In this document: positions 4,106 through 21,983 of the stretch, piece after piece
Layout: each line of letters starts with the position of its first letter
Position numbering within the stretch: the stretch's first letter is position 1
IMG/VR virus record: IMGVR_UViG_3300032524_000310
Span: 1 to 23,109 of that record
Source: a virus
Length of the DNA: 23,109 nt
Reading direction: 5' to 3' (one strand)
Notes under the pieces: model-generated
What the model saw: only the letters and a program-made list of their open reading frames with translations
Told to the model about the DNA's origin: nothing
Databases searched by the model: none
Made by a program: the position numbers and the translations under genes

Positions 4106-5650
4106 TTAGACGTCAGCCACCGTAGGCAGATAGTCAAAGAACACCATCAAAGCGGTGTGGTCGAGATTGGCATCGATAGCGGCACCAGTCGCGGCTGCCA
4201 TGGTAAGCGGCAACGTGATTGGCTGGTCCTGCTCAACATTCGGTCGGCCATCGCCCAGAGAGATAAGCGGCAGGTCCATAACGACACCCGAATTGTCTTT
4301 CACGATTGCAAAGTCCATCGTGATATCAACGTTGTTGCGAACGGCAGTCACTGCCGAAACGTCTGCAAAGTAGGCTGTGATACTTCCACCAACCTCAAAG
4401 GTGCCGGCAGTCGCTTCAAAAGCTCCCAGGGTACCAACAGCCTTGGACGCCGAAACGTTGTTGTTGATGGTGATGGTAATTTCCTGAGCGAAGGCGAAGA
4501 GTGCCGTTGGTGCTTCAGTGCCGTCCGTATGCTGAGCCAGCTTGATACGCGAGAAGTCCGAGCTGGTATTGAAGGCGTCGCTTTCGGTCAAGGCCGGACG
4601 AGTGCCAGCCTTGAGGGAAGTCGGACCATCAATGGTGGAGCTGCCCGCTCCCACAAAGCTAAGATCGACCGTCAGCTTATCGCCAGTCGGTATATTGAAG
4701 CTGGCTTCATTGGGCACCTGGCCTTCCAGGTATTCAGCCTGGATATTGGCAGGGGAAGCATCGTCCGGAGCACCCAAGGTGCGTTCCAGATTGTAGGTCC
4801 GGCGAACGATAGAAGTGCTGACACTTTCGTTCTTGAGAACACGGCCAAAGTACATTTCCAAAAGTATAGCCGTGCCGGTTTCCGTAACCATGGCCGCATC
4901 CGACTTATCAAATTCCAAGCGGTTCGCGGCGATGGTGCGGATACGCTTGAAACCATTATTGCCGGCATTAACAAAATCGGAGCTGGCCGTATCCCCACCT
5001 ATAAAGATAAACTCACCAACGATTAGGCCGAGGGTGGTAAAGTCCAAGATGGTAGAGGTAAGAGCCGGGAAGGTGAGGGTGGCATCAACGTCGATATCGG
5101 CGGAGGCACCAACATGACCAACCACGGTAATTTGCGCAGTGGCCGGAGGTGAAACCTCGGTGGTCAAAACGCCATCGGCGACTTCCACGGAAACATCGGT
5201 CACAATCGCTGTTACTTCATTGACGGTGTTGTTGCCGGCATTGGTGAAATTGGAGCCTTCAATAAGGCTACCGACGAGGAAACCTGCGGTGGCGGCGACT
5301 TCATATTCGTCCGGGTTGGCAGTATCAATGTCGACGGCGGTGACAAGCTCTTCCCCCTTGGGCCGGAGATCGGCGAAGAAAAAGCCCTGCAGCAAATCTT
5401 CCAGGTTCGTCTGGGTAAGGTCGGTATTGAAACCGCCCGAAGCATCCAGGTCCGTTACAACACCCTTCTTGCGCTGGCGTCCGTCATTGATCGGGTTGCG
5501 AGCCACCGTGGTGATGGAGCCGCCGAAGTCCGAATAGGAATTCGGTTCCAGTGGGTTCCAAACTTCTGAACCACCCACCGTGTTAAAGGACGTTTCCTCG
5601 GCATAACGAAGTCCGGTGGCATTGCTATCAATTTTGTTAACCGCAGTCAT
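4106..5650 (-). CDS. Major tail tube protein with internal repeat insert, 514 aa
   Basis: The N-terminus (MTAVNKIDSNATGLRYAEET, then 'GSEVWNPLEPNSYSDFG' and 'RNPINDGRQRKKGVVTDLDASGGF') is that of the phage tail tube family often labelled TTP_2; about 300 residues is usual for simple tube proteins, so 514 is long. The extra length is explained by two similar segments, residues about 103-160 and 201-255, each with a 'VG(S/E)xI...F(T/V)NAGNN' core. They look like duplicated β modules that would decorate the outside of the tube. The C-terminus ends in a β-rich segment with 'LDHTALMVFFDYLP'. AGGAG precedes the start. The gene lies between tail terminator and chaperones, the standard position. Subunits polymerise around the tape measure. 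Confidence 0.88.
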   Translation of the reverse strand: MTAVNKIDSNATGLRYAEETSFNTVGGSEVWNPLEPNSYSDFGGSITTVARNPINDGRQRKKGVVTDLDASGGFNTDLTQTNLEDLLQGFFFADLRPKGEELVTAVDIDTANPDEYEVAATAGFLVGSLIEGSNFTNAGNNTVNEVTAIVTDVSVEVADGVLTTEVSPPATAQITVVGHVGASADIDVDATLTFPALTSTILDFTTLGLIVGEFIFIGGDTASSDFVNAGNNGFKRIRTIAANRLEFDKSDAAMVTETGTAILLEMYFGRVLKNESVSTSIVRRTYNLERTLGAPDDASPANIQAEYLEGQVPNEASFNIPTGDKLTVDLSFVGAGSSTIDGPTSLKAGTRPALTESDAFNTSSDFSRIKLAQHTDGTEAPTALFAFAQEITITINNNVSASKAVGTLGAFEATAGTFEVGGSITAYFADVSAVTAVRNNVDITMDFAIVKDNSGVVMDLPLISLGDGRPNVEQDQPITLPLTMAAATGAAIDANLDHTALMVFFDYLPTVADV

Positions 5651-8458: not shown

Positions 8459-9117
8459 TAGACAAAGTGCCTTGGCACCTGCCCCACGTAGACTGACAAC
8501 GGTTCAACGACCGTAAAGCCTGCTGGAGCTCCTTGAGAAATAGCAGGGACGTCCGGAATGACGGTTCCCTGCGCTGCGGAAGCAAAACTACCATTCGATG
8601 CAGCAGCCCAGGAACCAGCAATCCCGAAACCGTTTGAAGAGGCAGTGGAACGAGCGAGCTCATTTCCATTACCCCACATACGTACCCGACCATCCCCTGG
8701 TCGAGCAGCTACAATGATTTCTAACTCAAGCCCAACAGGAAGTTCCACTGTGTTGTCAAAAAGTGCCGTGGCTCCATTTACGGTGCCATCTTCTCCTGAA
8801 TGGAAACCAATGGTATTATCCCCGACCCAAAGAGCGGAGCCAATAGCATCGTCTCCAAATTCAAAAGCCAACCCGCGATGCTGCCCAGCATTTTCCGTGA
8901 TGGCAATCGCGGTTTTGAAAGTGATTGGCGCAGTACGTACCGGGAAGATTGTCCCGGCTGCAATATCCGCAACTTCCATGACCGTATCCCCGAACAACCG
9001 ATGAGATCGGTTCATTTCGGGGACACCGGCAAGAGAACGACGACGTTCCCTCGAGTGGAAGAAGATCGCCTGCTCTTGCCCATCCAACTCTTTAAGGGGT
9101 TGAGGCAAAGCAGCCAT
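8458..9117 (-). CDS. LamG/concanavalin-like virion protein, 219 aa
   Basis: The protein has an N-terminal helix-rich segment ('LKELDGQEQAIFFHSRERRRSL') and then a β-rich part with 'APITFKTAIAITENAGQHRGLAFEFGDDAIGSALWVGDNTIGFHSGEDGT', 'LELEIIVAARPGDGRVRMWGNGNELARS' and 'GSWAAASNGSFASAAQGT'. This order of strands resembles LamG or concanavalin A-like lectin domains, which in phage virions often bind host surface sugars. No catalytic residues can be named. The gene lies between capsid-associated proteins and the connector genes. AAGGG precedes the ATG. It may be a capsid-bound adhesin. The fold is inferred by eye, and a structural search would be needed to confirm it. Confidence 0.5.
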   Translation of the reverse strand: MAALPQPLKELDGQEQAIFFHSRERRRSLAGVPEMNRSHRLFGDTVMEVADIAAGTIFPVRTAPITFKTAIAITENAGQHRGLAFEFGDDAIGSALWVGDNTIGFHSGEDGTVNGATALFDNTVELPVGLELEIIVAARPGDGRVRMWGNGNELARSTASSNGFGIAGSWAAASNGSFASAAQGTVIPDVPAISQGAPAGFTVVEPLSVYVGQVPRHFV

Positions 9118-11783: not shown

Positions 11784-12608
11784 TTACTTCACGGGGGCAG
11801 GCTTGGTCCCGCCGACGGTTGTGCCGGCAGCCTGGGCCATACGACCAGCCTTGTCGGGATCAGCACGAACAGCTGCACCCTGCTTGGTCATATTCCAGTG
11901 AGCTGCGGAGAATGGGTTCTCGCTGAAGCCACCACCGGCATTACCACCACCGTTGGCTCCACCACCTTGGGCAGCAGGCCACCAATGCGGACGCTTCTCC
12001 TGCATTTCGGCCAGCCACGTTTCGGCATTAACACCGGGAGTGGCACCGATGCCATCCTTGGTGGTAACAGAACCATCTTCCTGGACTTCGAACACCCGTT
12101 CACCGAGCATCAACACATCGTCCATGGCCGTGGTTACAACTTTGGTCTCGGAAGCAGCACTGCGTACGGCGTCGGAGATTGTCCGGTTGGTTTCCTTGGT
12201 GGCATATTCGGTGTTGGTATTGACGAGCTCACCATTTTCTTCGGTGAGCTTGCGAATGTCCCGTTCCAGGGGAGCAACCTTGGTGGCCACACGGGCAGCA
12301 ACCAGGGCTTCAATTTTGTCTTCGTCGACTTGACCGTCACCATTTTCCAACCGGATACGGGCTTCCGCCAATTCGTCGGCGTCCTTGGCAATTTGTTCGG
12401 GATCGAGATCGGCCAATGGAACCAGCTTTTCCTTGGTGGCCTTGTGGTCGGTGCGTTCTTTGGTAAGGGAAGTTTGGAGCCGATCAACGTCGGCCTGGGT
12501 TTTCATTCCCTGAACTTCGGTAAGTTCCCACTTGCCGTCGCGTTCGGTATAAAGTTCCTGGAACTGTTCGGGAATGTCGTCTTGTTTATCGTATACTGCC
12601 TTGAGCAT
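11784..12608 (-). CDS. Capsid scaffold protein, 274 aa
   Basis: The gene precedes the major capsid gene, the usual scaffold position. Residues about 35-140 are a long charged helical region likely to be coiled coil ('VDRLQTSLTKERTDHKATKEKL', 'DADELAEARIRLENGDGQVDEDKIEALVAARVATKVAPLERDIRKLTEENGELV'). A C-terminal domain has 'RPHWWPAAQGGG', a Gly/Asn-rich linker and 'NPFSAAHWNMTKQGAAVRADPDKAGRMAQAAGT', a C-terminal capsid-binding pattern seen in scaffold proteins of related phages. It guides procapsid assembly and leaves before maturation. No protease motif is visible. AGAGGAG precedes the start, and transcription probably begins at the TATAAT promoter at 12669-12698. Confidence 0.82.
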   Translation of the reverse strand: MLKAVYDKQDDIPEQFQELYTERDGKWELTEVQGMKTQADVDRLQTSLTKERTDHKATKEKLVPLADLDPEQIAKDADELAEARIRLENGDGQVDEDKIEALVAARVATKVAPLERDIRKLTEENGELVNTNTEYATKETNRTISDAVRSAASETKVVTTAMDDVLMLGERVFEVQEDGSVTTKDGIGATPGVNAETWLAEMQEKRPHWWPAAQGGGANGGGNAGGGFSENPFSAAHWNMTKQGAAVRADPDKAGRMAQAAGTTVGGTKPAPVK

Positions 12609-12698: not shown

Positions 12699-12714
12699 GG
12701 GGACAATTTAGTTG

Positions 12715-12743
12715 TTGCCTTTTGCGGGGAAGGGTGGTAAGGT
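12715..12743 (+). promoter_or_regulatory. Island 1 promoter (shared family)
   Basis: TTGCCT (12715-12720), 17 bp, TAAGGT (12738-12743). The box and the following leader TCAGGATTAGAAAAGGAG are nearly identical to those before island 2 at 15656-15684, and the 5' half is shared with island 3 at 21654-21682. The leader ends in the AGGAG ribosome binding site of the first island gene. Confidence 0.82.
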
Positions 12744-12773
12744 AAGGTCAGGATTAGAAAAGGAGAAAACGAA

Positions 12774-12986
12774 ATGACTACCTTCTACGCAATTAAAAAA
12801 CCTTCCCCCTACGGCGACAGCTTTGTTCGCGCAAGCGGCGACGACTATAAAGGGATGGGACCTTGCCCGACCCTCTTCAGCAGGAAGGAACGTGCTGAAA
12901 CGGTTATCGCCAACTACAAATGGATTTCCAAGAATTCCGGAAAGCCTGCTTCCACCCTTGAAATCATCGAAGTGGAGATCGGATAA
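12774..12986 (+). CDS. Small hypothetical protein, 70 aa, island 1 first gene
   Basis: I do not recognise this protein. It is the first gene behind the island 1 promoter, with AAAAGGAG 8 nt before the ATG. The sequence starts MTTFYAIKKPSPYGDSFVRA, has a short central 'GPCPTLFSRKERAETVIANYKW' segment and an acidic β-like end (ASTLEIIEVEIG). The arrangement 'PTLFxxKERAExVIxxY' and a final β strand suggests a small α/β fold. There is no membrane segment. Its stop overlaps the next start by one base (TAATG), so the two genes are probably translated together. Function unknown; an accessory role in infection is an inference from position. Confidence 0.78.
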   Translation: MTTFYAIKKPSPYGDSFVRASGDDYKGMGPCPTLFSRKERAETVIANYKWISKNSGKPASTLEIIEVEIG

Positions 12987-13225
12987 TGGGTATCGAACTT
13001 AAGTCCATCAATAACGCTTCCCCTCGCTGCATCGATATTTATAAAAGCGGGTGGACCCCAGCATCCCCCTGGTGCGCCGATGTTATTTTCGAGGATGGTC
13101 GTTCCTGGCCTGCATGGCAACAATCCTTTCGCACTAAAACTGCGATGGTGAAAAATATCAATACAGCTCTTGACAGTGTTGGTCTCCCAGACCTCCCCAT
13201 CATAAGGGTCAAGGACAAAGAATAA
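12986..13225 (+). CDS. Small hypothetical protein, 79 aa
   Basis: I do not recognise this family. The ATG overlaps the stop of the previous gene (TAATG), which argues for coupled translation. The protein is a compact α/β sequence: 'IELKSINNASPRCIDIYKSGW', 'ASPWCADVIFEDGRSWPAWQQSF' and a C-terminal helix 'TKTAMVKNINTALDSVGLPDL'. It has two cysteines (C15, C30) and several tryptophans but no clear metal-binding pattern. It is the last gene before the 198-nt structured spacer carrying two hairpin copies. Function unknown. Confidence 0.75.
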   Translation: MGIELKSINNASPRCIDIYKSGWTPASPWCADVIFEDGRSWPAWQQSFRTKTAMVKNINTALDSVGLPDLPIIRVKDKE

Positions 13226-13256
13226 TAATTAACCCCACCTGCGGACAACCCGCCCA

Positions 13257-13388
13257 CTCCCCGGAGCCTGTGAGAAGGTGGCCGGGGGTAAGGGGTGTAG
13301 GAACAAGGAGACTGTCATGAATATCGAGGGCTAAATCCCTCCCGCTCCCCGGAGCCTCTTCAATGAGGTGGCCGGGGGTAAGGGGTGT
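13257..13388 (+). repeat. Twin hairpin element in island 1 leader region
   Basis: Two copies, 13257-13298 and 13345-13388, share CTCCCCGGAGCCT on the left and AGGTGGCCGGGGGTAAGG then GGTGT on the right. Only the hairpin loop differs: GTGAGA in copy 1, CTTCAATG in copy 2. Each can fold with CCCCGG pairing CCGGGG and GCCT pairing AGGT; in copy 2 an extra C-G pair forms. The distal GGGGTGT could compete for the same CTCCCC. There is no U-tract, so these are not ordinary terminators. They enclose a five-codon frame with a strong ribosome binding site (13317-13334). The remainder of 13226-13423 holds no gene. Confidence 0.85.
13317..13334 (+). CDS. Possible five-residue leader peptide MNIEG
   Basis: AAGGAG lies 7 nt before an ATG that opens a five-codon frame, MNIEG, ending in TAA. 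The stop lies in the loop of a small hairpin (GAGGG-ctaaat-CCCTC, 13326-13341). The frame sits between the two copies of the hairpin element. It may be translated as a leader peptide that changes folding of the second copy and thus expression of the HTH gene at 13424. The evidence is the ribosome binding site and its setting only. Confidence 0.35.
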   Translation: MNIEG

Positions 13389-13423
13389 GAACTTTTTATA
13401 CTTAAAAATGGAGAACCAGTGTT

Positions 13424-13714
13424 ATGAAGAACCATCAAAAAGTCGGCACCAGCCACCTGCAAAGGGCCATGGATGAATTTGGCCTCAACAAGTCCGAACT
13501 CAGCGCTGCCCTGGGTATGAGCAATGGCTTTGTATCCACCTGTATGAGCGCTAACGAAGCACCGGCCTGGTCGCAGTTGGCTGTTGAATGCCTCTTCCGC
13601 CGTCAGGGCAAACACAAAGGTGAAGTCACCCTCATCATCAAAGTTCCCGGCTCCAAAAAAGAAGCCGTCACCTCTTTCCTTGACGCCCTGGGCATTGCTG
13701 CCTCGGTCGTCTAA
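13424..13714 (+). CDS. Small HTH DNA-binding protein, 96 aa
   Basis: Residues about 12-42 (LQRAMDEFGLNKSELSAALGMSNGFVSTCM) have the pattern of a helix-turn-helix: a first helix, 'LNKSELSAALGMSNGFVS' as the turn and recognition helix. This resembles Cro/XRE-type small DNA-binding proteins. The C-terminal part has a β strand (GEVTLIIKVPG) and a helix (KEAVTSFLDALGI) that may serve dimerisation. The gene follows the twin hairpin region; ATGGAGA lies before the ATG, and TATACT (13399-13404) resembles a -10 box, though without a clear -35. It is the only recognisable regulator in the window and a candidate controller of the island promoters or structural operons; its target is unknown. Confidence 0.72.
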   Translation: MKNHQKVGTSHLQRAMDEFGLNKSELSAALGMSNGFVSTCMSANEAPAWSQLAVECLFRRQGKHKGEVTLIIKVPGSKKEAVTSFLDALGIAASVV

Positions 13715-13723
13715 TCCTGCGAC

Positions 13724-13750
13724 GGGGACTTGGTAAGGTACCAAGTCCCC
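13724..13750. other. 12-bp perfect hairpin between island 1 genes
   Basis: GGGGACTTGGTA and TACCAAGTCCCC are exact reverse complements separated by AGG. The stem lies 9 nt after the HTH gene and 22 nt before the next start. No U-run follows (AGAGCGCATC), so it is unlikely to be an intrinsic terminator. It may protect or process the mRNA, or be a DNA palindrome bound by the neighbouring HTH protein. Confidence 0.75.
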
Positions 13751-13772
13751 AGAGCGCATCTGGAGAATTGAA

Positions 13773-14114
13773 ATGAAAGCCACCCTCCCAGACGGTAGAA
13801 TTATCGAAGGTAGCATTGTCCATATGAGTGAGGGGTATGTTTCGGATAATATCCAGCTGGAAGAACGGGACGTGCGGTACATGCTGCATCTGCTGGAGCA
13901 CAACCCCGACTATCTTCGCCGGACGCTGCTGCAATTGAAAAATCGATATCCGGTCAATCGGGTTGGCCATCGCGAAGAAAAAGAAGGCCCCTACATTTAT
14001 TGCGAGCAGGGCAATTCCAATTGCGGGAGCCAAACGTGCGGTTGCGTTGACAATCCAGTTTACCGGATCAAGTATTGGCTAGCAAAAAGGAAAAGGGAGA
14101 AAAGAAATGGCTAA
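13773..14114 (+). CDS. Hypothetical protein with four-cysteine motif, 113 aa
   Basis: I do not recognise this family. CTGGAGA lies 8 nt before the ATG. The protein starts with a β-like segment 'MKATLPDGRIIEGSIVHMSEGYVSD', a helical middle 'ERDVRYMLHLLEHNPDYLRRTLLQL', and a C-terminal segment with four cysteines at about residues 77, 84, 89 and 91 (C-x6-C-x4-C-x-C), a spacing that could hold one metal ion. The C-terminus is strongly basic (KYWLAKRKREKRNG), so nucleic acid binding is possible. The end overlaps the next gene by 8 nt. Metal binding is inferred from spacing only. Confidence 0.72.
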   Translation: MKATLPDGRIIEGSIVHMSEGYVSDNIQLEERDVRYMLHLLEHNPDYLRRTLLQLKNRYPVNRVGHREEKEGPYIYCEQGNSNCGSQTCGCVDNPVYRIKYWLAKRKREKRNG

Positions 14115-14487
14115 GGATTATCTCGCAGTGTTGCATCGGGGATATAGAAAGTTTGTGTCATACATTGCTGGTGAAGAAATGTATATAGAAGATACACCCC
14201 TGGATCAAACAATTTTACAGCGTGACTTCGAAGAGCGTGGGCGGATAATCTACAAGATGCGCAAGGCCCAACAGGAGACGCTTGATCTGCTGGAACAGGC
14301 TGTCAACTTCATCGTTCGGTCGCAAGCCCACAAGGGCTGCATGAACATGGAGCAAATTGCCCAGGAAGAGGAAAGGCTGCGCAAACAAGTGAGCCACGTT
14401 TGTTGCGCGCACAACTCCTCCGACGTGGGGGTTGGGTTCCAACTGCGGAAAGCGATTGAGATGATTGAGGAGGCGAAGAAGTCATGA
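14107..14487 (+). CDS. Hypothetical helical protein, 126 aa
   Basis: Function not recognised. AAAGGGAGA precedes the ATG, which lies inside the end of the previous gene. The sequence is largely helical: 'ILQRDFEERGRIIYKMRKAQQETLDLLEQAVNFIV' (about residues 37-70) and 'MEQIAQEEERLRKQV' (81-95) look like amphipathic or coiled-coil helices, with cysteines at about 78, 99 and 100. There is no membrane segment. The stop overlaps the start of the membrane protein gene that follows (ATGA), so both may act together. Confidence 0.72.
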   Translation: MAKDYLAVLHRGYRKFVSYIAGEEMYIEDTPLDQTILQRDFEERGRIIYKMRKAQQETLDLLEQAVNFIVRSQAHKGCMNMEQIAQEEERLRKQVSHVCCAHNSSDVGVGFQLRKAIEMIEEAKKS

Positions 14488-14717
14488 CCCTCTTGGAATT
14501 CATAAGAGACCAACTTGGATTTGTTGGGGTGCTTCTATTACTTCTCATGGGCTGTGGGGTAGGGATGATCATTTGGTGCATGACTATGGTGTTTAGGGAA
14601 TGGTATCAATCAATGGAAAAATCGATGGAAGAATGGTCCCTATCAATAGAATGCCGCAGAAAAGAACTGAATAACCGTAGAGCTGCACTTCAGAAAAGAA
14701 AAGGCCCCAGCGGTTAA
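14484..14717 (+). CDS. Small single-span membrane protein, 77 aa
   Basis: The first 10 residues are followed by a strongly hydrophobic segment (about residues 11-37, 'LGFVGVLLLLLMGCGVGMIIWCMTMVF') and then a charged helix (about 38-73) rich in Glu, Lys and Arg that may be coiled coil. This is the shape of a small inner-membrane protein with a cytoplasmic or periplasmic tail. It could be a superinfection exclusion or spanin-like protein, but no family motif allows a choice; there is no overlapping lipoprotein gene as expected of an Rz/Rz1 pair. The start overlaps the previous stop by 4 nt, and its stop codon lies in the loop of the terminator that ends island 1. Confidence 0.72.
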   Translation: MTLLEFIRDQLGFVGVLLLLLMGCGVGMIIWCMTMVFREWYQSMEKSMEEWSLSIECRRKELNNRRAALQKRKGPSG

Positions 14718-14726
14718 GCTGGGGCC
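14703..14726. terminator. Bidirectional terminator ending island 1
   Basis: GGCCCCAGC and GCTGGGGCC form a 9-bp stem with loop GGTTAA, which contains the stop codon of the 77-aa gene. On the plus strand GAGTTTTA follows. On the minus strand TTTTCTTTTCTG follows, a better U-tract. It therefore serves both island 1 and the convergent 273-aa gene ending at 14743. Confidence 0.85.
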
Positions 14727-14742
14727 GAGTTTTACAGGTCGG

Positions 14743-15564
14743 TTAGGTGCGGTCGCTGGCAACACCGTCGATTGCGGCTCGCCAGAATTTACCTTGGTTA
14801 AAGGTGGCATCGTTCGAACGGGCACCTGGGTAAGTCAGGACATTAACAACAACGTCCTCCAAAGCCTCGGCAACCGTATCCGTCGTCGGTACCAGGGTAT
14901 TGATACCCGTACCGGCATCGGCCAGAGCCACCGCAGTACCGGCCAGGGCCAAAGCCTTGGTGGTGGCGAAGCTGAACGTATCATCCGTCAGGCGGATAAT
15001 GTAATAGTCCGTTCCGTCAGCGCCATTCTGGAGAGTGGCGTTGTCGACGACCATCGTGCCATCCACCGAGGCCAGCGTGATGGCATTACCCACCGCAGCT
15101 TCCAGCGTCTTGGCCTGAACGGTGAGGACAGCGGCGTCGGTCACCATGGCCTTGATCGTCGGGTTGCCAACGGTGGCCTCGTCGTAAGTCGTCGCACTGG
15201 CCGGAACGTCCTGGTTGATGGCGGCAGCGATATTGGCCAGGGTCTTGGCGTCGCTGGCTCCAACGTCGACGTCACCGTCAACCGCCGGAGTGGCGATGAG
15301 CGTATAGCTCTTGCCGGCAGCCACCAAGACGTCGGTGGCGATCATCGTGGTGCCAGTCATAAAGGTCTCGGCATGCTTGGCCACGGTCAGGCCGGAAGGC
15401 GCATCGGCGATGGTATTCATAACCTTGTACGGTCCGGCTCCGGTCTCGAGACCGTGGGCCGATGCGGTAAGGATATTGCCGGAGGTACGAACGAACTCCT
15501 GCTTGGTACCGAAGGGCACAAGCGTTCCGCCCATGGCGGCGATAAATAGTGCTTTGGTTGACAT
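14743..15564 (-). CDS. Isolated virion-like protein with nested domain, 273 aa
   Basis: Function unknown. This structural-type gene stands alone between two plus-strand islands with its own promoter and terminator. Residues about 30-60 ('ILTASAHGLETGAGPYKVMNT') and 185-222 ('TDYYIIRLTDDTFSFATTKALALAGTAVALADAGTG') look like two halves of one β domain common in phage tail and virion proteins. Between them, about 85-184, lies a second module ('SYTLIATPAVDGDVDVGASDAKTLANIAAAIN...EAAVGNAITLAS...ATLQNGADG') related to that inserted in the connector at 6472-7329. The start uses AAGGGA, which lies beside a 10-bp palindrome. It may be a decoration or adhesion protein; that is inference. Confidence 0.62.
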   Translation of the reverse strand: MSTKALFIAAMGGTLVPFGTKQEFVRTSGNILTASAHGLETGAGPYKVMNTIADAPSGLTVAKHAETFMTGTTMIATDVLVAAGKSYTLIATPAVDGDVDVGASDAKTLANIAAAINQDVPASATTYDEATVGNPTIKAMVTDAAVLTVQAKTLEAAVGNAITLASVDGTMVVDNATLQNGADGTDYYIIRLTDDTFSFATTKALALAGTAVALADAGTGINTLVPTTDTVAEALEDVVVNVLTYPGARSNDATFNQGKFWRAAIDGVASDRT

Positions 15565-15609
15565 TGTATTGGTTCCCTTGCAAGGAAGTGATGCTCCTCT
15601 GATAATCAG

Positions 15610-15638
15610 GTTATATCGGGTTATCGGAGGAATAACAA
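15610..15638 (-). promoter_or_regulatory. Promoter for the 273-aa gene, with adjoining palindrome
   Basis: On the minus strand TTGTTA (15638-15633), 17 bp, TATAAC (15615-15610). The palindrome CTGATTATCAG (15609-15599) abuts the -10 box and covers the expected transcription start, a likely operator position. A second palindrome CCTTGCAAGG lies at 15576-15585 in the leader. It is back to back with the island 2 promoter. Confidence 0.7.
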
Positions 15639-15655
15639 TTAATTTAATTTAGGTG

Positions 15656-15684
15656 TTGCCTTTTGCGGGGAGTGGTGCTAAGAT
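15656..15684 (+). promoter_or_regulatory. Island 2 promoter (shared family)
   Basis: TTGCCT (15656-15661), 17 bp, TAAGAT (15679-15684), followed by the leader TCAGGATTAGAAAAGGAG found also in island 1. The segment from TGTTGCCTTTTGCGGGGA to the ribosome binding site matches island 1 at nearly every position. Confidence 0.85.
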
Positions 15685-15714
15685 GATCTCAGGATTAGAA
15701 AAGGAGTTACCCAA

Positions 15715-15945
15715 ATGACCACCACAACCACCCAGAAGATTAAAAAATGGACCGTCGACTACATCGTCGAAGAAAACGTTCGCAAGGTTCGCATCATGGA
15801 CACATGGCATGCAACCGGCGAATTGTTCACAGTCGAAGTCATTTCCTACCCGCGCAACCAATACACCGTGGATGAAATGGTTTCCGATCTCAACGAGCGT
15901 GGCTACTTCGGTGGCTCCGAATTCCGCGCAGCTTTTGGAGTATAA
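15715..15945 (+). CDS. Small hypothetical protein, 76 aa, island 2 first gene
   Basis: I do not recognise this protein. It is the first gene behind the island 2 promoter, with AAAAGGAG 9 nt before the ATG. After a threonine-rich start (MTTTTTQKIKKWTVDYIV) it has 'RKVRIMDTWHATGELFTVEVIS' and a helical end 'TVDEMVSDLNERGYFGGSEFRAAFG'. The pattern suggests a small α/β fold with three strands and a helix. There is no membrane segment or metal motif. Its end carries the ribosome binding site of the next gene (TTGGAG). It shows no obvious similarity to the first gene of island 1, although the leaders are nearly the same. Confidence 0.77.
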   Translation: MTTTTTQKIKKWTVDYIVEENVRKVRIMDTWHATGELFTVEVISYPRNQYTVDEMVSDLNERGYFGGSEFRAAFGV

Positions 15946-15949
15946 CGGC

Positions 15950-16159
15950 ATGACCTACTACCTCTTAGATTTCGCCCCCGACGGAACGCAAACCGTTATC
16001 ACCTATTGCCAAGAAGAAATGGAAGATGCCTTCACCGCCGACCAACGTGTAATGCTGGCCAATGGCGAACGGATTATCCACCACTGGCATCCTCGTCGCG
16101 CCAAGAACCATGCGATTGCTGACATGGTTGTTACTACTGAGCGTAAGTGGGGGAAGTGA
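15950..16159 (+). CDS. Small hypothetical protein, 69 aa
   Basis: The frame is open further upstream, but the best start is the ATG at 15950, 4 nt after the stop of the previous gene and 9 nt behind TTGGAG; the extension upstream would overlap that gene in another frame. The protein starts MTYYLLDFAPDGTQTVITYC, has a helical 'QEEMEDAFTADQRVMLANGERIIHHWHPRR' with two adjacent histidines, and ends basic. Family not recognised. It is followed at once by a GTG-started gene. Confidence 0.65.
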   Translation: MTYYLLDFAPDGTQTVITYCQEEMEDAFTADQRVMLANGERIIHHWHPRRAKNHAIADMVVTTERKWGK

Positions 16160-16160
16160 G

Positions 16161-16325
16161 GTGAAGAAAGTCATCCAAATCATCGAGACTGCAACCGATC
16201 GTGTCGAACACGAAATTGACGTTACCGGCCAGAGCGAGCGTTCAATTGAACGTACCGAAGATGGGGTAAACATTAATCTCAATCATGAACAATTTCATAC
16301 CAATGTAACTGAGGTGGAAGAATGA
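16161..16325 (+). CDS. Small hypothetical protein, 54 aa, GTG start
   Basis: The best start is GTG at 16161, immediately after the previous TGA, with GGGGGAAGTGAG ahead; the longer open frame upstream overlaps the previous gene. The protein reads VKKVIQIIETATDRVEHEID, then VTGQSERSIERTEDGVNINL and a short end. I recognise its pattern ('xKVIxIIExATxxVxxxIDVTGxSERxIxRxEdGxNINLNHxxF') from small accessory proteins in many phages, whose function I cannot name. It is a compact β-type protein. Its stop overlaps the next start by 4 nt (ATGA). Confidence 0.68.
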   Translation: MKKVIQIIETATDRVEHEIDVTGQSERSIERTEDGVNINLNHEQFHTNVTEVEE

Positions 16326-16756
16326 CCGACATAGAAGAAACATGGATTTATTATGGGGTTGTTAAGTTGAATGGTGGCGGCCATGGCCACAAGTTCATCC
16401 CCCTTGTTGAAGGGAAACTTGATCTTGACAACACCAGCATATTTGGAATGGGCAAGGGTTGGAGAACCTTTACCGTGGGAGGACATTACCGTGTCACGTT
16501 AGTGAACAAAGGCCAGTCGGTAAGTGGCTCCCCCAAATGGAACGGGAGTATGTGGAAGGACACCGAACTGGTAGCCCAATGGGGTGCTTCCTCCAAAGCC
16601 ATTGAAGGTGCAAAGCGGTTAGCTGCCAGAGAGAAAAAGCTCAAGGACGATCCTCTCAGGGAGGCCCTTGATCCAATTAGGCGAGCCATGCGTGGGGCCA
16701 GCGACCCAGAAAGGGCTGTGCTTTTATCTTGGGTGGTGAAGGAGTTGCTGAAATGA
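16322..16756 (+). CDS. Hypothetical protein, 144 aa
   Basis: Function not recognised. The ATG overlaps the previous stop (ATGA) and GAGGTGGAAG lies ahead. The N-terminal half is β-rich ('TWIYYGVVKLNGGGHGHKFIPLVEGKLDL', 'GWRTFTVGGHYRVTLVNKGQSVSGSPKWNGSMWKDTELVAQW'), and the C-terminal half is helical and charged ('SSKAIEGAKRLAAREKKLKDDPLREALDPIRRAMR', 'ERAVLLSWVVKELLK'). A β domain followed by a basic helical domain could suit a nucleic acid or protein adaptor, but this is speculative. Its stop overlaps the next ATG by 4 nt. Confidence 0.75.
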   Translation: MTDIEETWIYYGVVKLNGGGHGHKFIPLVEGKLDLDNTSIFGMGKGWRTFTVGGHYRVTLVNKGQSVSGSPKWNGSMWKDTELVAQWGASSKAIEGAKRLAAREKKLKDDPLREALDPIRRAMRGASDPERAVLLSWVVKELLK

Positions 16757-17079
16757 CAGCCCTCGGTGTTCAGTACCATGTGAAAAATCGTGGGTTGCGG
16801 TTGCCGGGCGCAGGCACCCTTCGGAGAACAATCCTTGGGCGTATGCTCTCTACTCAAGGACTGACCGGTCCGGAAGCGGTGAAGGATGGCCTAGTTACTG
16901 CAAGGAATGGCAAAGGCTACACAAACCTGCATACCGCGATGAACCATTTCCGGGATGAATTGTTCTTCGACGTTCGGCAAGTCAAAAGACCCGGCATGAA
17001 ATACACCGTCTACCTCATCGTTGGGCGGTGGGACAGCAAAGGACGGTACATTGATTATTTGGTAGGGAGGATAAAGTAA
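16753..17079 (+). CDS. Hypothetical protein, 108 aa
   Basis: Family not recognised. The chosen ATG at 16753 overlaps the stop of the 144-aa gene (ATGA), with GGAGTTG upstream; an earlier ATG in the same frame is less likely. The sequence has two helical stretches ('GTLRRTILGRMLSTQGLTGPEAVKDGLV' and 'YTNLHTAMNHFRDELFFDV') and a C-terminal β hairpin ('KYTVYLIVGRWDSKGRYIDYLVGRI'). Two or three helices before a β wing resemble a winged-helix fold, a weak suggestion only. The stop overlaps the next start by one base (TAATG). Confidence 0.7.
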   Translation: MTALGVQYHVKNRGLRLPGAGTLRRTILGRMLSTQGLTGPEAVKDGLVTARNGKGYTNLHTAMNHFRDELFFDVRQVKRPGMKYTVYLIVGRWDSKGRYIDYLVGRIK

Positions 17080-17318
17080 TGACCATAGAAACTGTAGAAA
17101 TGTACAAGACGAATGATGGGGTGGCGCATGAGACATATGAAAAAGCTGTTGCTCATATAATCGATAAAATTGGCGAAGAATTAGACGCTGTGCTCCTCCA
17201 CGATAAAAAATGCTGCGAGTTAATGGGCAGGCGTGAATTTTACCGAGTTATTTTGGCGCTCGTCGGGGACGAAGAGAAATTCACCAAGCTCGCTAAACTT
17301 TTGGAGAGGTGGGTTTAA
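17079..17318 (+). CDS. Small hypothetical protein, 79 aa, last of island 2
   Basis: I do not recognise this protein. Its start is coupled to the previous stop (TAATG), with GGGAGG ahead. A short β start 'MTIETVEMYKTNDGVAHETYEKAVAHII' followed by helices 'DKIGEELDAVLLHDKKCCELM' and 'REFYRVILALVGDEEKFTKLAKLLERWV' gives a mostly helical protein; 'KTNDGxxHxTYExAxxH' is a pattern I associate with small phage proteins. The stop TAA (17316-17318) overlaps the stop of the minus-strand head morphogenesis gene, so island 2 is packed against it without a spacer or terminator. Confidence 0.75.
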   Translation: MTIETVEMYKTNDGVAHETYEKAVAHIIDKIGEELDAVLLHDKKCCELMGRREFYRVILALVGDEEKFTKLAKLLERWV

Positions 17319-18517
17319 AGAAAGTCCTCGGGATCAAGCCCTGCCGCCCTGAACGCTTTGGCATTGGAGGCTGCCAATTGGCTGAGGGTAAGCTCGGAAC
17401 CGGCACGGTCGACGAACTTCGTCAACGGCAACTCCCCCTTGCGGAATAGTTTCCCTTTAGTATTTCCTAACACGTCATCCTGGAAATCTCCAGATTGACG
17501 TGTTAGCCATTCCTGGTAAGTAACCTTGGCCGGGACGGTGCCGGTCAATTCACGGATGCGCTTTTGGGAGAATTCATCAAACGATCCTTTCTTGCCGAAC
17601 GGAAGGTCAGCACGTTTGGAGACTGCGCTGATCTTATTGTCCTTGGCGAACTCCTTCAGCAATTGTCGCTGCGTGAATGGTCGGGCTGGCCTACGCCCAA
17701 GGGCCTCTTCGCTAATCACGGCAATGCGCATGGAACGGCATTGCATATGGGCAGGCGGGTAACGACCCTCCCCAACATTCCACCGTCGACCGTCCAGGCT
17801 CATACAGATATTGGTTGTGCGGTTATCCAATGTTGCAACCCACATTTCCTTTTTGAAGATGTCGGCATTGGCCATGTAGAATTCTCGCTTGGCCTGATTG
17901 GAGAATGCATTGACGGCTGTGCGTGTGATGGCGTTGGATTGTCGGCGGGTAATCTCAGTTACCCCATTCTTACCCTTCTGGGCCACAGTGCCCACCAGCC
18001 GCCGAGCAATGGCGTCGCCGGTTTCGCCGTTGACCATGCCAATACGCACCTGGGCTTCAAGCCGACTGATATCGGCAGCTGCTATGTTCTTCGACCATTG
18101 TTTGAGAGTTTTGCCTTCGAACGGTTTGACCTTCACCAGCGCAGTTAACAGTGCTGTTGGAGGCAAGACCGTTTCCAACGTTACCGGCACCACCGTCTTC
18201 AATATCCCGCTCATCGTAACCGGCTCAGTATTTACCAGGTCGACCATTTCCTTGAGCCAAAGCGCATCCACCTGCTTCCATGCCGTCAGGCGGGTGGCCC
18301 TAATAACCTTCAACAGCTTGTTCATCCGCTTTACGGAGGCAGGGCTGTCGAAGCCTTTGTGGTTGGCGAGGATGGTTCGGGTCTGCTTGGCGATATCGGC
18401 TTCGGTAGCGTTCAGCAGAGCATATACGTCATTGCGAATGGAACCGGAAAGGCGGAGCAAGCCTATCTGGTGGCGCACAACAGCATCGAAGAATTCTTCA
18501 TTGACAGTTAGGGCCAT
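17315..18517 (-). CDS. MuF/SPP1 gp7-type head morphogenesis protein, 400 aa
   Basis: Residues about 160-270 contain the phage Mu F/SPP1 gp7 domain: a helical part 'DAIARRLVG...ITRRQSNAITRTAVNAFSNQAKREFY', then 'MWVATLDNRTTNICMSLDGRRWNVGEGRYPPAHMQCRSMRIAV'. The signature TLDxRTxxxC (229-238) and PPAHMQCRS (254-262) is complete. Such proteins bind the portal, enter the procapsid in a few copies and aid DNA packaging or ejection. The gene follows the portal gene by 3 nt, with GGAGGAA before the ATG. A strong hairpin (17467-17506) lies in the coding region. The C-terminal part (270-400) is not recognised. Confidence 0.9.
   Translation of the reverse strand: MALTVNEEFFDAVVRHQIGLLRLSGSIRNDVYALLNATEADIAKQTRTILANHKGFDSPASVKRMNKLLKVIRATRLTAWKQVDALWLKEMVDLVNTEPVTMSGILKTVVPVTLETVLPPTALLTALVKVKPFEGKTLKQWSKNIAAADISRLEAQVRIGMVNGETGDAIARRLVGTVAQKGKNGVTEITRRQSNAITRTAVNAFSNQAKREFYMANADIFKKEMWVATLDNRTTNICMSLDGRRWNVGEGRYPPAHMQCRSMRIAVISEEALGRRPARPFTQRQLLKEFAKDNKISAVSKRADLPFGKKGSFDEFSQKRIRELTGTVPAKVTYQEWLTRQSGDFQDDVLGNTKGKLFRKGELPLTKFVDRAGSELTLSQLAASNAKAFRAAGLDPEDFL
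17467..17506. other. Long hairpin inside the head morphogenesis gene
   Basis: CTAACACGTCA (17467-17477) and TGACGTGTTAG (17496-17506) are exact reverse complements, and inside them CTGGA and TCCAG pair around a 4-nt loop. The 16 pairs are broken only by a 2x2 internal loop. It encodes residues about 338-351 of the minus-strand gene. On the plus strand it lies about 150 bp beyond the end of island 2. Role unknown. Confidence 0.75.
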
Positions 18518-18520
18518 GGA

Positions 18521-19972
18521 TTATTCCTCCGTGGCGTCGGGCTCACCAAGCTCTTCCTCTTCGCCACCTTCCACCAAGGGTACTTCTTCCTCGATCTCGT
18601 GGAGCTCATCTTCATAATCCAGGTCCGTGAGTGACTTGTCCTGCATTAAGGAATGGATGGTCTTGAGGGAGATTGGTGCGCCGAGGCTCTTGGCCGTCAT
18701 GTATTCGACCAGGGTCTTGCCTTCCATGCCATCGTCGACGAAGTCCGTATTGGCTTCAACACTAACATCTTCCGGGTTGGCCCCAACCCACTTGGCAGCC
18801 TGCTTCAAAGAAAGCTCCAGGCCGAAAGCCCCTGTCTTAGCGATCTGGTTCAGGGTGGCGGTGCGCGCCGTAACCCTTATCCGTAACGCTTCGCCACTTT
18901 CCTTATCCCTTGAAACAGCATCCAATAGCTGGCCTCCACGTTGGGAGGCTTCGGACTTGTCGTTCTCCAAGGCTTTGCGCATTTCTTCTAGGCCTTGGCT
19001 GTCGACGCCGATGAATTTTGCTTCCCCGCCCGTGGGTAAAACGATAGCGGCATTGGCCCCAGTGCGGAAGGTCTGGTCCGGATCAGATACTCCGGAAACA
19101 ACCAGGGTATCCTGGCCCTGCATGAACAATGCCTGCTGGTAGTCCGCAGAGGCCATGTAAATGCCAATGGCAAGCCGCGCAAGGCCCAAAAGGGGAGGCT
19201 GCGCTGGAGCCGGCACGACGTCCGTGGAATTAATGAAGGTGAATGGTATTTCGTCCAACGTGGTACCACCGATACTCGGTTGGACCATGGACGCCATATT
19301 GAAGGAGGTTTCCTTGTCAGTGAATTGGCCGACGCTATATACCCCACCACCGGCTGCTTCATTGATCTCCGGATCGCCGAGCACGGCCACCCGGTACTTG
19401 TTCTTGAACTCCCACTCGAAGTTGTCATTGCGGACGTATTCGCTCTCATCCAACACAACCAAGTTCAGGTTCTGCGACACGAGACCTTCGCGGGTACCAT
19501 TATCCCAATTCAAAATCTCCTTGGCCCCATACATTGCGATGTAGGGGGTTGATCCAACTGTTGATCCATCTGCAATGTCCAACAACAGGCCAAGTCGGCC
19601 GGACATGAGCTGTTGTTCATTAATACGGCGCAATAGGACTTCCAGCCCTTCGCCTTGTAATGTGGCGTTCCCCAACATTGGCTCCAGCTGGGGTGGGAGC
19701 TCAATGGTCGGGGGTTTGGAATGCAAGACGCCAGTCAATGCGTCGACGGCAGTCTTGACAACGTCGGGATATCTTGCCCGCAGCTTGTAAGCATCATAAG
19801 CCTTACGACCAGGTTGTTCGGATTGCATCCCGTCGGCATTTTGTCCGGACGTGGGTGGTAGATATTTCTCCCCTTCATCCTTGATAACCCGCTCACCGCC
19901 ATAATTATCGATCATGAGGTTCCAATCAGGAAGGAAGATCGAATAGTTGGGATGTACGCTTGAAATGGCCAT
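18521..19972 (-). CDS. Portal protein (DUF4055 type), 483 aa
   Basis: The protein matches the DUF4055 group of portal-like proteins found between the large terminase and the MuF-type gene. Typical parts are 'YLPPTSGQNADGM...YDAYKLRARYPDVVKTAVDALTGVLHSKPP' (about residues 38-90), 'RRINEQQLMSGRLGLLLDIAD' (about 115-135), and later 'GLARLAIGIYMASADYQQALFMQGQDTLVVSG'. It ends in an acidic tail (EEEVPLVEGGEEEELGEPDATEE). Twelve copies form the vertex ring through which DNA is packaged and ejected, and which nucleates the procapsid. CAGGAG lies 9 nt before the ATG. Length is normal for the family. Confidence 0.9.
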   Translation of the reverse strand: MAISSVHPNYSIFLPDWNLMIDNYGGERVIKDEGEKYLPPTSGQNADGMQSEQPGRKAYDAYKLRARYPDVVKTAVDALTGVLHSKPPTIELPPQLEPMLGNATLQGEGLEVLLRRINEQQLMSGRLGLLLDIADGSTVGSTPYIAMYGAKEILNWDNGTREGLVSQNLNLVVLDESEYVRNDNFEWEFKNKYRVAVLGDPEINEAAGGGVYSVGQFTDKETSFNMASMVQPSIGGTTLDEIPFTFINSTDVVPAPAQPPLLGLARLAIGIYMASADYQQALFMQGQDTLVVSGVSDPDQTFRTGANAAIVLPTGGEAKFIGVDSQGLEEMRKALENDKSEASQRGGQLLDAVSRDKESGEALRIRVTARTATLNQIAKTGAFGLELSLKQAAKWVGANPEDVSVEANTDFVDDGMEGKTLVEYMTAKSLGAPISLKTIHSLMQDKSLTDLDYEDELHEIEEEVPLVEGGEEEELGEPDATEE

Positions 19973-20035
19973 GGGTTAGGTCTCCTGTGCGGAAAGCAGT
20001 TTAATCTTATAGCCTCGGAACAACAATCAGTAAAG

Positions 20036-21622
20036 TTAATACATGCCCGTATGGTTGCCAGAGGAAGCCTCGGTTCCGAAGTAGCGAACGCGATAACGGG
20101 TCTCATCACCAATGTGATCTTCACTATCGGTGTCCACATCGTCCATATTCTTCTCATCCCGTGGCAGGCTCGGTACCGTCCGTAAGAATTGCGGACATTC
20201 TCGCCCGACGACGAACAGGCCAGGATTTTCCCTCGGCCGACCTTCATTGGGCCATGCCGCTTTGCACATCTTACGTAACGCTTCCCATCCCGTCTTCCTG
20301 GAGCCGGGTCGCTTGTCCGCTCGTCCCCAGGGGATGCCTTTATACATGATGTTACCAATACGCACGGGCTTGGCCATATCCTGGCCGATGCTTACACCAT
20401 TCTCCACGTCGAATATGGAACTGTCAGCTGGCCCAGGGCGGACGAACGTTTGATCGCCCTTGCGATACTCCCACAATAGCTCACGTTCAACAATTCCTTT
20501 GGCAATGTCAACTGCCAGGTAGCGCAGCCCTTGGTTCGCGCTTCCGTTCCAACCGTACCACTCCTTGATGCGGAATAGATCACCCTTCACTGTGGAGACA
20601 ATCCGACCATCGGGGAAACGTAGGTCCGTGCCATCCGATTGTGCCCACCAACCAACACTGAACGGTGCACTGCTGCCCCAATCGAAAGAACGGTCGACTT
20701 TCCAGCTTCGGGGGATGACGAAAGGTTCCACGATGTTGTACCTGGGGTCCCAAACATCTTCCAGCATGCCACCGGCCACGATCTCCCAGCTGCCGTGCAA
20801 CCAGGCTTCGGCCATTGCGGGATTGGCGGCGGAGGCAATGATGGTTTGCTTGTAGTGGGGGTCGGCGGCCAATAGGATTTTGTTCTCATCAATATGACCA
20901 TGGATGGAACAACGAATAGGCTCGTCGCGTCCGTCGATGTCCTTGGCGTCCATGATAACAATCGTCTTCCACCATTCCCCATAGAGGCGGAAGCGGTCCT
21001 TCACCCAATTGTGGCCGACGCCATACGGGTTGGTGGTGGCACGGACCATGCGAGGGATACCAGGAGTGGAGGACCGGCAGCAACTGAACATGGACTTGTA
21101 GCATTCGTCGGTGGCCCAGTTGGTAAGTTCTTCCCAGCCGATGAAGGGCAGCTCATGGCCGTGATAATTCCAATAATCGGAAGGCGACTTCATGTGGCGG
21201 AACATCAACACTTCGCCAGTGTCCCATTCCCACATCATCTTGGACTTGTTGAACTTCGCCTTGTTACCGAACATAAGCCGGAACCACTTTTCCGATTTGG
21301 CCTGGACGTCGGCCAGCTGGGGATAGCTCTCGCGGAAGATAACTCCGCGCCATGCTTCGCCGTGGCCTTTCCCAACGTGCTGAGCGAAGGCCATGAGCAG
21401 GCTGTCAGTTTTACCTGGACCACGAGTACCATGGAACAGGCATTCGAACAACCGGCACTGCAGGAAGTCAGTTTGTGAACCGTCTTGGGGAGACCATACG
21501 ATGGTCTGCCCATTAACCTTACGAACAGGGATGATGGCCTCTTGAACAGTGGCCTCCTTCAATCGGCGATTGAATTCTTCCTGTTCATCGGCGGAGGGTG
21601 TGTAGGCGTTCGGATCAGCCAT
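20036..21622 (-). CDS. terL: Terminase large subunit, 528 aa
   Basis: The packaging motor ATPase and nuclease. Walker A is GTRGPGKT (residues 65-72), Walker B LPFIGWEE (158-165), and the coupling motif ATTNP (195-199). The nuclease domain shows RSFDWGSSAP (D314), PGPADSSIF (D400) and a late DTDSEDHIGDETRY with D506, the three-acid pattern of RNase H-like terminase nucleases. The protein cuts concatemeric phage DNA and pumps it through the portal. It is full length and intact. The ribosome binding site is weak (TTGAG). Upstream lies island 3, so small and large terminase genes, usually neighbours, are separated by a plus-strand gene; no clear minus promoter was seen directly before this gene. 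Confidence 0.96.
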   Translation of the reverse strand: MADPNAYTPSADEQEEFNRRLKEATVQEAIIPVRKVNGQTIVWSPQDGSQTDFLQCRLFECLFHGTRGPGKTDSLLMAFAQHVGKGHGEAWRGVIFRESYPQLADVQAKSEKWFRLMFGNKAKFNKSKMMWEWDTGEVLMFRHMKSPSDYWNYHGHELPFIGWEELTNWATDECYKSMFSCCRSSTPGIPRMVRATTNPYGVGHNWVKDRFRLYGEWWKTIVIMDAKDIDGRDEPIRCSIHGHIDENKILLAADPHYKQTIIASAANPAMAEAWLHGSWEIVAGGMLEDVWDPRYNIVEPFVIPRSWKVDRSFDWGSSAPFSVGWWAQSDGTDLRFPDGRIVSTVKGDLFRIKEWYGWNGSANQGLRYLAVDIAKGIVERELLWEYRKGDQTFVRPGPADSSIFDVENGVSIGQDMAKPVRIGNIMYKGIPWGRADKRPGSRKTGWEALRKMCKAAWPNEGRPRENPGLFVVGRECPQFLRTVPSLPRDEKNMDDVDTDSEDHIGDETRYRVRYFGTEASSGNHTGMY

Positions 21623-21653
21623 AAATTAATCTCAACTTTCTTGTAGAAAGGTG

Positions 21654-21682
21654 TTGCCTTTTGCTGGCATACGTGCGAATAT
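21654..21682 (+). promoter_or_regulatory. Island 3 promoter (shared family)
   Basis: TTGCCT (21654-21659), 17 bp, GAATAT (21677-21682). The 5' part GGTGTTGCCTTTTGC is identical to that of island 2, and the leader ends with the same GAAAAGGAG. The -10 box differs more than in islands 1 and 2. Just 5' of it lies the inverted repeat CTTTCT-tgt-AGAAAG (21636-21650). Confidence 0.75.
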
Positions 21683-21704
21683 GATTGGAGAAAAGGAGAA
21701 TACC

Positions 21705-21983
21705 ATGACCATCTTACCCCGCACCCTGGCCGCAATGCAATTCCGCCCCACGTCCTATGAAGTCGTAGCCAAGACGGCAACTGAGGAGGTTCGCTTGGCG
21801 TTTACGGAACGCCGCACCAAAAGCAGCCTGTTGGTCCTTGCTCAATACAACGGAGATCAAATCCTCAAGCTCCTCGGCGATTGGAACGGTGAGGCGACGT
21901 ACAATAAGCGGGAAGGTTGGACCTTCGGACCAGTAAGGATTTGCTTCTCCGGTCGGACGGAACGGGAATTGGCTACCCATTAG
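21705..21983 (+). CDS. Small hypothetical protein, 92 aa, single gene of island 3
   Basis: The chosen ATG at 21705 follows AAAAGGAG by 6 nt. A longer frame from 21651 would place the promoter inside the coding sequence and is rejected. The protein reads MTILPRTLAAMQFRPTSYEV with 'AKTATEEVRLAFTERRTKSSLLVLAQYNGDQILKLLGDW' and 'REGWTFGPVRICFSGRTERELATH'. The order of strands and the 'GWTFGPVRIxFSGRTERE' end are not tied to a named family. Its TAG stop overlaps the TAA of the small terminase gene on the other strand, leaving no spacer. It divides the two terminase genes. Confidence 0.75.
   Translation: MTILPRTLAAMQFRPTSYEVVAKTATEEVRLAFTERRTKSSLLVLAQYNGDQILKLLGDWNGEATYNKREGWTFGPVRICFSGRTERELATH

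Follow-up and report, generated by a model that had tools for sequence, protein, structure and literature searches.

A putative repeated phage promoter ahead of gene islands in the structural module of a siphophage

What places three nearly identical promoter-like units among the head and terminase genes of a siphophage, each reading against the genes around it? The window, meaning the whole 23,109-base viral record analysed here, carries mainly minus-strand siphophage structural genes (terS, terL, portal, MuF head protein, gene 14743-15564, scaffold, major head protein and tail genes), and this block is interrupted by three plus-strand islands. TerL and head-gene homologues in family order place the window among Mesyanzhinovviridae-like siphophages. 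Its TerL is 54-58% identical to those of PaMx11, PaMx74, Mallos and RDJL3, several of which are filed under Mesyanzhinovviridae, and its head genes recur in the same order in dozens of contigs. The fragment covers the structural half of the genome, the polymerase/primase/thymidylate synthase half and any tandem-HTH gene lying outside its 23 kb.

The three sites very probably belong to a repeated promoter of the phage itself, one that precedes non-structural operons in Mesyanzhinovviridae relatives, and the islands would be small non-structural genes wired to it at junctions of the head block. From sequence we infer transcription starts at these sites, their early timing, an anti-host role for the island genes and recognition of the extended -35 by a phage protein.

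The three sites and their surroundings

The features on which the argument turns are the following.

11784-12608, minus strand: head scaffolding protein, flanking island 1
12705-12765, plus strand: putative promoter 1, with AT-rich AATTTAGTT, -35 TTGCCT and its TTTTGC extension (12715-12725), a 17-bp spacer, -10 TAAGGT (12738-12743) and a short leader ending GAAAAGGAG
12774-14717, plus strand: island 1, six small genes, nearly all orphans (12774-12986, 12986-13225, 13424-13714, which is HTH-like, 13773-14114, 14107-14487 and 14484-14717)
14703-14726, no strand assigned: strong hairpin (z -4.9), resembling a bidirectional terminator, at the convergent end of island 1
14743-15564, minus strand: gene between islands 1 and 2, no PHROG
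15646-15706, plus strand: putative promoter 2, the same unit as promoter 1, with -10 TAAGAT at 15679-15684
15715-17318, plus strand: island 2, about six small genes, the first at 15715-15945, convergent with the 3' end of the MuF gene
17315-18517, minus strand: MuF-type head morphogenesis protein, flanking island 2
20036-21622, minus strand: terminase large subunit, flanking island 3
21644-21698, plus strand: putative promoter 3, with GTTGCCTTTTGCTGG, -10 GAATAT at 17 bp or TATGAT at 20 bp, and a shorter leader ending GAGAAAAGGAG
21705-21983, plus strand: island 3, one gene between terL and terS, with a homologue in contig G006
21980-22564, minus strand: terminase small subunit, flanking island 3

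A sequence-only reading of this DNA had proposed three near-identical promoters with a 17-bp spacer, and a leader kept between islands 1 and 2. The copies and the leader were borne out. Within the window, TTGCCTTTTGC occurs exactly at 12715, 15656 and 21654 only, on the plus strand at all three, and the 12-mer GTTGCCTTTTGC with at most one mismatch returns the same three matches and nothing on the minus strand; a reversed control gave no match. Three copies of GTTGCCTTTTGC-K-GG followed by the GAAAAGGAG leader are present, against 0 in 100 shuffles. A looser 11-mer with two mismatches is at chance in the window (10 matches, 10.1 expected), so that the signal is carried by the exact copies and their leader. 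From AATTTAG to GAAAAGGAG, sites 1 and 2 are identical at 53 of 61 positions. The proposed spacer holds at these two sites. At site 3, 17 bp lead to a poorer -10, so that the -10 rule ranks it as the weaker promoter, and a TATGAT stands 3 bp further on; the site 3 leader is without the TCAGGATTA part. As in a YuA-type set, at least three extended -35 copies with a 16-17 bp spacer lie upstream of gene starts.

Each site also falls, as proposed, at a junction of the structural module: site 1 (12715) is enclosed by scaffold (12608) and gene 14743-15564, site 2 (15656) by the latter gene and the MuF head protein (17315), and site 3 (21654) by terL (21622) and terS (21980). The islands behind them are almost entirely of no known function, in agreement with the same reading. 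Their proteins are nearly all orphans, and those tried, the island-3 gene aside, gave no homologue in phages or viral contigs. At 13257-13395, ahead of the HTH gene at 13424, a five-codon ORF (MNIEG) stands between two nearly identical blocks that can form hairpins (CTCCCCGGAGCCT..AGGTGGCCGGGGGTAAGGGGTGTG); the blocks fold mildly better than shuffles (z -1.1 and -2.0), and Rfam returned nothing near threshold.

Two other identities for the sites were set aside. Sigma54 promoters were rejected, as -24/-12 sites number 8 in the window against 13.7 expected and no GG-N10-GC fits the three elements. An origin as host promoters was rejected as well, since bacterial and archaeal genomes, when scanned, yielded 50 single, chance-like matches in unrelated organisms.

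A promoter set shared with relatives

Relatives were found by scanning viral contigs for the motif and then for the same leader behind it. The 28-kb contig IMGVR_UViG_3300032524_000350 (G001) holds four copies of the window promoter with its leader. Its genes follow the order of the PaMx11 and YuA non-structural half, with which it is collinear; among them are those for DNA polymerase, primase, ribonucleotide reductase and thymidylate synthase, at about 50-59% identity. The contig is tied to the window by the common promoter version, and not necessarily by membership in the same genus. The PaMx11 genome contains nine copies, exact or near, of which the MuF-scaffold island has four and the non-structural half five; Lucjan resembles it in carrying the element in both places. 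In neither record are these sites annotated as promoters. Both phages (Abidjanvirus) resemble the window in CTTGCCTTTTGC, the 17-bp spacer and the AGAAAAGGAG leader; they differ in having sense islands and, in the leader of most copies, a GGTCGGGGCGGTTCCCG block, and no terS-terL copy was found in them. Related promoters occur within the MuF-scaffold island of L208, L128, L129, L131, L132 and L159, and L159, an antisense island with three promoters, is the nearest parallel to the window. RDJL3, PaMx74, Mallos and Donnerlittchen have no multi-copy promoter set.

One such set has already been annotated. Record NC_010116 of phage YuA lists five 28-bp repeats, each as a 'putative sigma70 promoter requiring phage-encoded cofactor', which read CTTTACTTCTTCGG, a 17-bp spacer and then TATACT. 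The YuA and window units have in common a repeated sigma70-like layout, the spacer and a conserved extension behind the -35, and the post-reductase and post-primase positions in YuA match promoters of G001 and PaMx11. They differ in version (CTTTACTTCTTCGG in YuA, GTTGCCTTTTGCGG here); moreover, none of the YuA repeats is in the structural module, and the YuA late genes are annotated with -24/-12 promoters, sites of which the window has no excess. We take the window set to be a variant of the YuA-type promoter set and a real repeated unit, and the isolated YuA annotation is now tied to a family-wide set. No paper describing these promoters was found in the open literature.

The start-associated sequences (SAS/ESAS) of Cluster K mycobacteriophages offer a partial analogy, as far as the portion of the published account used here goes (PMC3203893). 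They too are repeated upstream of non-structural gene starts and include a Shine-Dalgarno, and the consensus of their extended part varies between subclusters, as the promoter version does between groups here. In that portion, SAS abuts the start codon, is confined to the non-structural half of unrelated phages and is described without a -35/-10 unit (PMC3203893). The 13-bp GGGATAGGAGCCC adjoining the start codon, as described there for SAS, was not found; the leaders here are GATTAGAAAAGGAG or GGAGAAAAGGAG.

What interests us most is that the set diverges in concert, changing as one unit from phage to phage. The gene behind the post-ribonucleotide-reductase promoter is orthologous in YuA, SN1, CN1, Bhz59, PaMx11, Lucjan and G001, and a promoter follows the primase in YuA, PaMx11, G001, L109, L213, G004, G005 and G019; both positions fall outside the window, and the positional match was tested in the relatives. 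These sites are best read as corresponding promoters of different sequence. For 14-mers around the -35, mean mismatches amount to 0.91 between copies within a lineage versus 4.23 at orthologous positions between lineages, a contrast that in part reflects common descent of recent copies, because the lineages were drawn partly by relatedness. The common regulon of accessory genes envisaged by the sequence-only reading is well supported and larger than it proposed; it is not limited to accessory genes, since the conserved genes after ribonucleotide reductase and after the primase also belong to it.

Repeats of other kinds surround the -35 block in some relatives. Inverted repeats, with arms that differ from site to site, occur at L208:3672(-), L159:5792(-), YuA 29058 and 31098, and CN1 8690. 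Flanking arms of at least 6 bp are found at 9 of 57 sites, compared with 2.1 expected by permutation (0 of 2000 permutations reach 9), and are absent at the window sites. In YuA (L218) at 2877, 7722 and 22639, and in CN1 (L275) at 8690, 23940 and 29620, the -35 block CTTTACTTCTT recurs as a direct repeat in the -10 region CTATACTTCTT, at a distance of 23 bp. In L109, at 2619-2690 and 5260-5335, the leader carries an inverted copy of the -35 block (TTGTTGTCTTTTTCT ... AGAAAAGGACAACAA) and then a separate ribosome-binding site; the inverted copy resembles a second operator.

What may read the promoter

Since the set changes as a unit, a trans-acting recogniser would be expected, and the pattern suggests that a factor acting in trans reads the promoters. 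The HTH protein at 13424, put forward earlier as the regulator, makes a poor candidate, being an orphan with no relative found and an HTH match below threshold. The best candidate for recognising the extended -35, and for the missing cofactor of YuA, is a small protein whose two HTH domains are of XRE type (Pfam HTH_31, E 4e-13), encoded beside the primase, between it and a nuclease/helicase-like gene; it is gp58 in PaMx11 and gp25 in YuA. This tandem-HTH protein is found in 77 phage records, mostly of Pseudomonas phages, with some Bordetella, Stenotrophomonas and Sphaerotilus phages, and its recognition helices vary between phages that have different promoter versions. Among the first 12 genomes, a multi-copy promoter set was present in all 8 with the protein and in none of the 4 without it. 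As a perfect predictor, its presence failed beyond those genomes: in a second set, 12 of 16 contigs encode the protein, and a repeated 10-mer was found in only some of them, clearly in G004 and G013. The protein accompanies every promoter set found where the primase region is covered, yet it is not sufficient for one.

A fuller picture, possible but less likely than not, is that of a promoter code private to each lineage and read by the lineage's own tandem-HTH protein. The two HTH domains would bind a TTGC-NNN-TTGC-like block overlapping the -35, promoter and protein would co-evolve genome-wide, and any gene landing behind a copy, even in the virion module and on the other strand, would join the non-structural programme. 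Should this hold, the set would be a natural case of co-evolution between a regulator and its sites, with a named candidate regulator.

The same protein could act in the opposite sense. The conserved block may be mainly an operator, at which the tandem-HTH protein represses and so turns the non-structural genes off later in infection; the two XRE-type domains, the annotation of some orthologues as repressor, recognition helices that differ with promoter version and the inverted -35 copy in the L109 leader are all compatible with such a role. The correlation between protein and promoter is, however, confounded by descent, and G015, G006, G011, G012 and G009 bear the HTH protein but show no repeated motif in the 10-mer test, so that we regard repression as possible but doubtful.

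Alternatively, the units could be plain host sigma70 promoters, alike merely through their strength and independent of any phage factor. Ordinary-looking -10s fit this idea (TATAAT/TATACT in L109 and L110, TATATC/TATATT after GC in L208/L209). It is nevertheless unlikely, because the TTTTGC extension is more strictly conserved than the -10, each lineage uses its own version at all its sites, which host sigma70 would not demand, several phages of the group are devoid of multi-copy sets, and the YuA record itself names a phage cofactor.

Islands between structural genes

Comparison with relatives, a check suggested by the sequence-only reading, indeed found islands present in some phages and absent from others at junctions of conserved structural genes, in both orientations. 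From MuF to the homologue of gene 14743-15564, the window has 1.75 kb, L148 has 138 bp, and L104 has 245 bp that hold a different short sense ORF; the terS-terL gap is 360 bp in the window versus 16-65 bp in L109, L131 and L105. Island 2 is absent from L104 and G006/L148, and island 3 from L109, L131 and L105. The commonest insertion point is MuF-scaffold. Plus-strand islands in a minus-strand module, as had been described, are true of the window, and L159 is also antisense; they are not the rule, as the islands of PaMx11, Lucjan, L208, L128, L129, L131 and L132 are sense. Antisense islands also occupy the gap between scaffold and major head protein in PaMx74 (L222, 13498-15893) and Mallos (L220, 13787-16318), phages without this promoter set.

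Genes behind these promoters have homologues elsewhere. The island-3 gene has one at 18444-18707 of G006 (49% identity, E 6e-19), in a run of small genes in the non-structural region, 5-6 kb from the primase and more than 70 kb from terL. No promoter of this type precedes that run, and gene and promoter are therefore separable. The L131 island opens with a gene homologous to the one behind the promoter at G001:27309 (4e-19). The structural module and the non-structural region thus exchange genes, and the promoter type sometimes travels with them and sometimes does not. A non-structural origin of all island genes is an extrapolation from island 3 and L131, most island genes having no homologue.

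It is improbable that promoter and gene move together as mobile cassettes recombining at shared promoter sequences, as the earlier reading had offered: varying island content between conserved flanks, the L131 and G001 homologues directly behind their promoters and the 61-bp region of match between sites 1 and 2 would suit such units, but the element stands at a single end of each island, the G006 homologue lacks it, likeness stops at the start codon with copies in unrelated flanks, and concerted replacement across lineages indicates selection on recognition.

Lambdoid phage morons are additional genes that bring a promoter of their own and sit between structural genes which are otherwise neighbours. 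The islands likewise carry a promoter-like unit of their own between structural genes that are adjacent in relatives; they differ in that the promoter comes from a genome-wide phage set, and in that a clear terminator-like hairpin (14703-14726) was found at island 1 and no terminator for islands 2 and 3.

If the sites are copies of a phage-wide promoter, expression of the islands would most likely proceed as follows. The unit would be sigma70-like, with -35 TTGCCT, the conserved TTTTGC extension, a 16-17 bp spacer, a -10 and a short leader. A sigma70-type holoenzyme, probably with a phage factor reading TTGCCTTTTGC, would start about 7 bp after the -10 and yield a leader of some 27 nt with a strong Shine-Dalgarno. 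Islands, sited chiefly at the MuF/scaffold junction of the head-gene block, would be expressed alongside the other non-structural genes, independently of late transcription. The hairpin, whose best T-tail serves minus-strand transcripts leaving gene 14743-15564, would stop these ahead of island 1. Because the islands run against the late genes, late transcription would have to start anew beyond each of them; candidate minus-strand -35/-10 pairs are located before terS and scaffold.

On this promoter reading, GTTGCCTTTTGCKGG after the reductase and the primase, together with a tandem-HTH gene, would be expected in the rest of the window phage's genome. It also offers a simple pattern for spotting non-structural accessory genes between virion genes, and a place to look for anti-host and counter-defence genes. 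Finally, gene 14743-15564 varies in position within the structural module: the window and L148 have it between MuF and scaffold, whereas in L130, L133, L166 and L176 it follows the major head protein gene.
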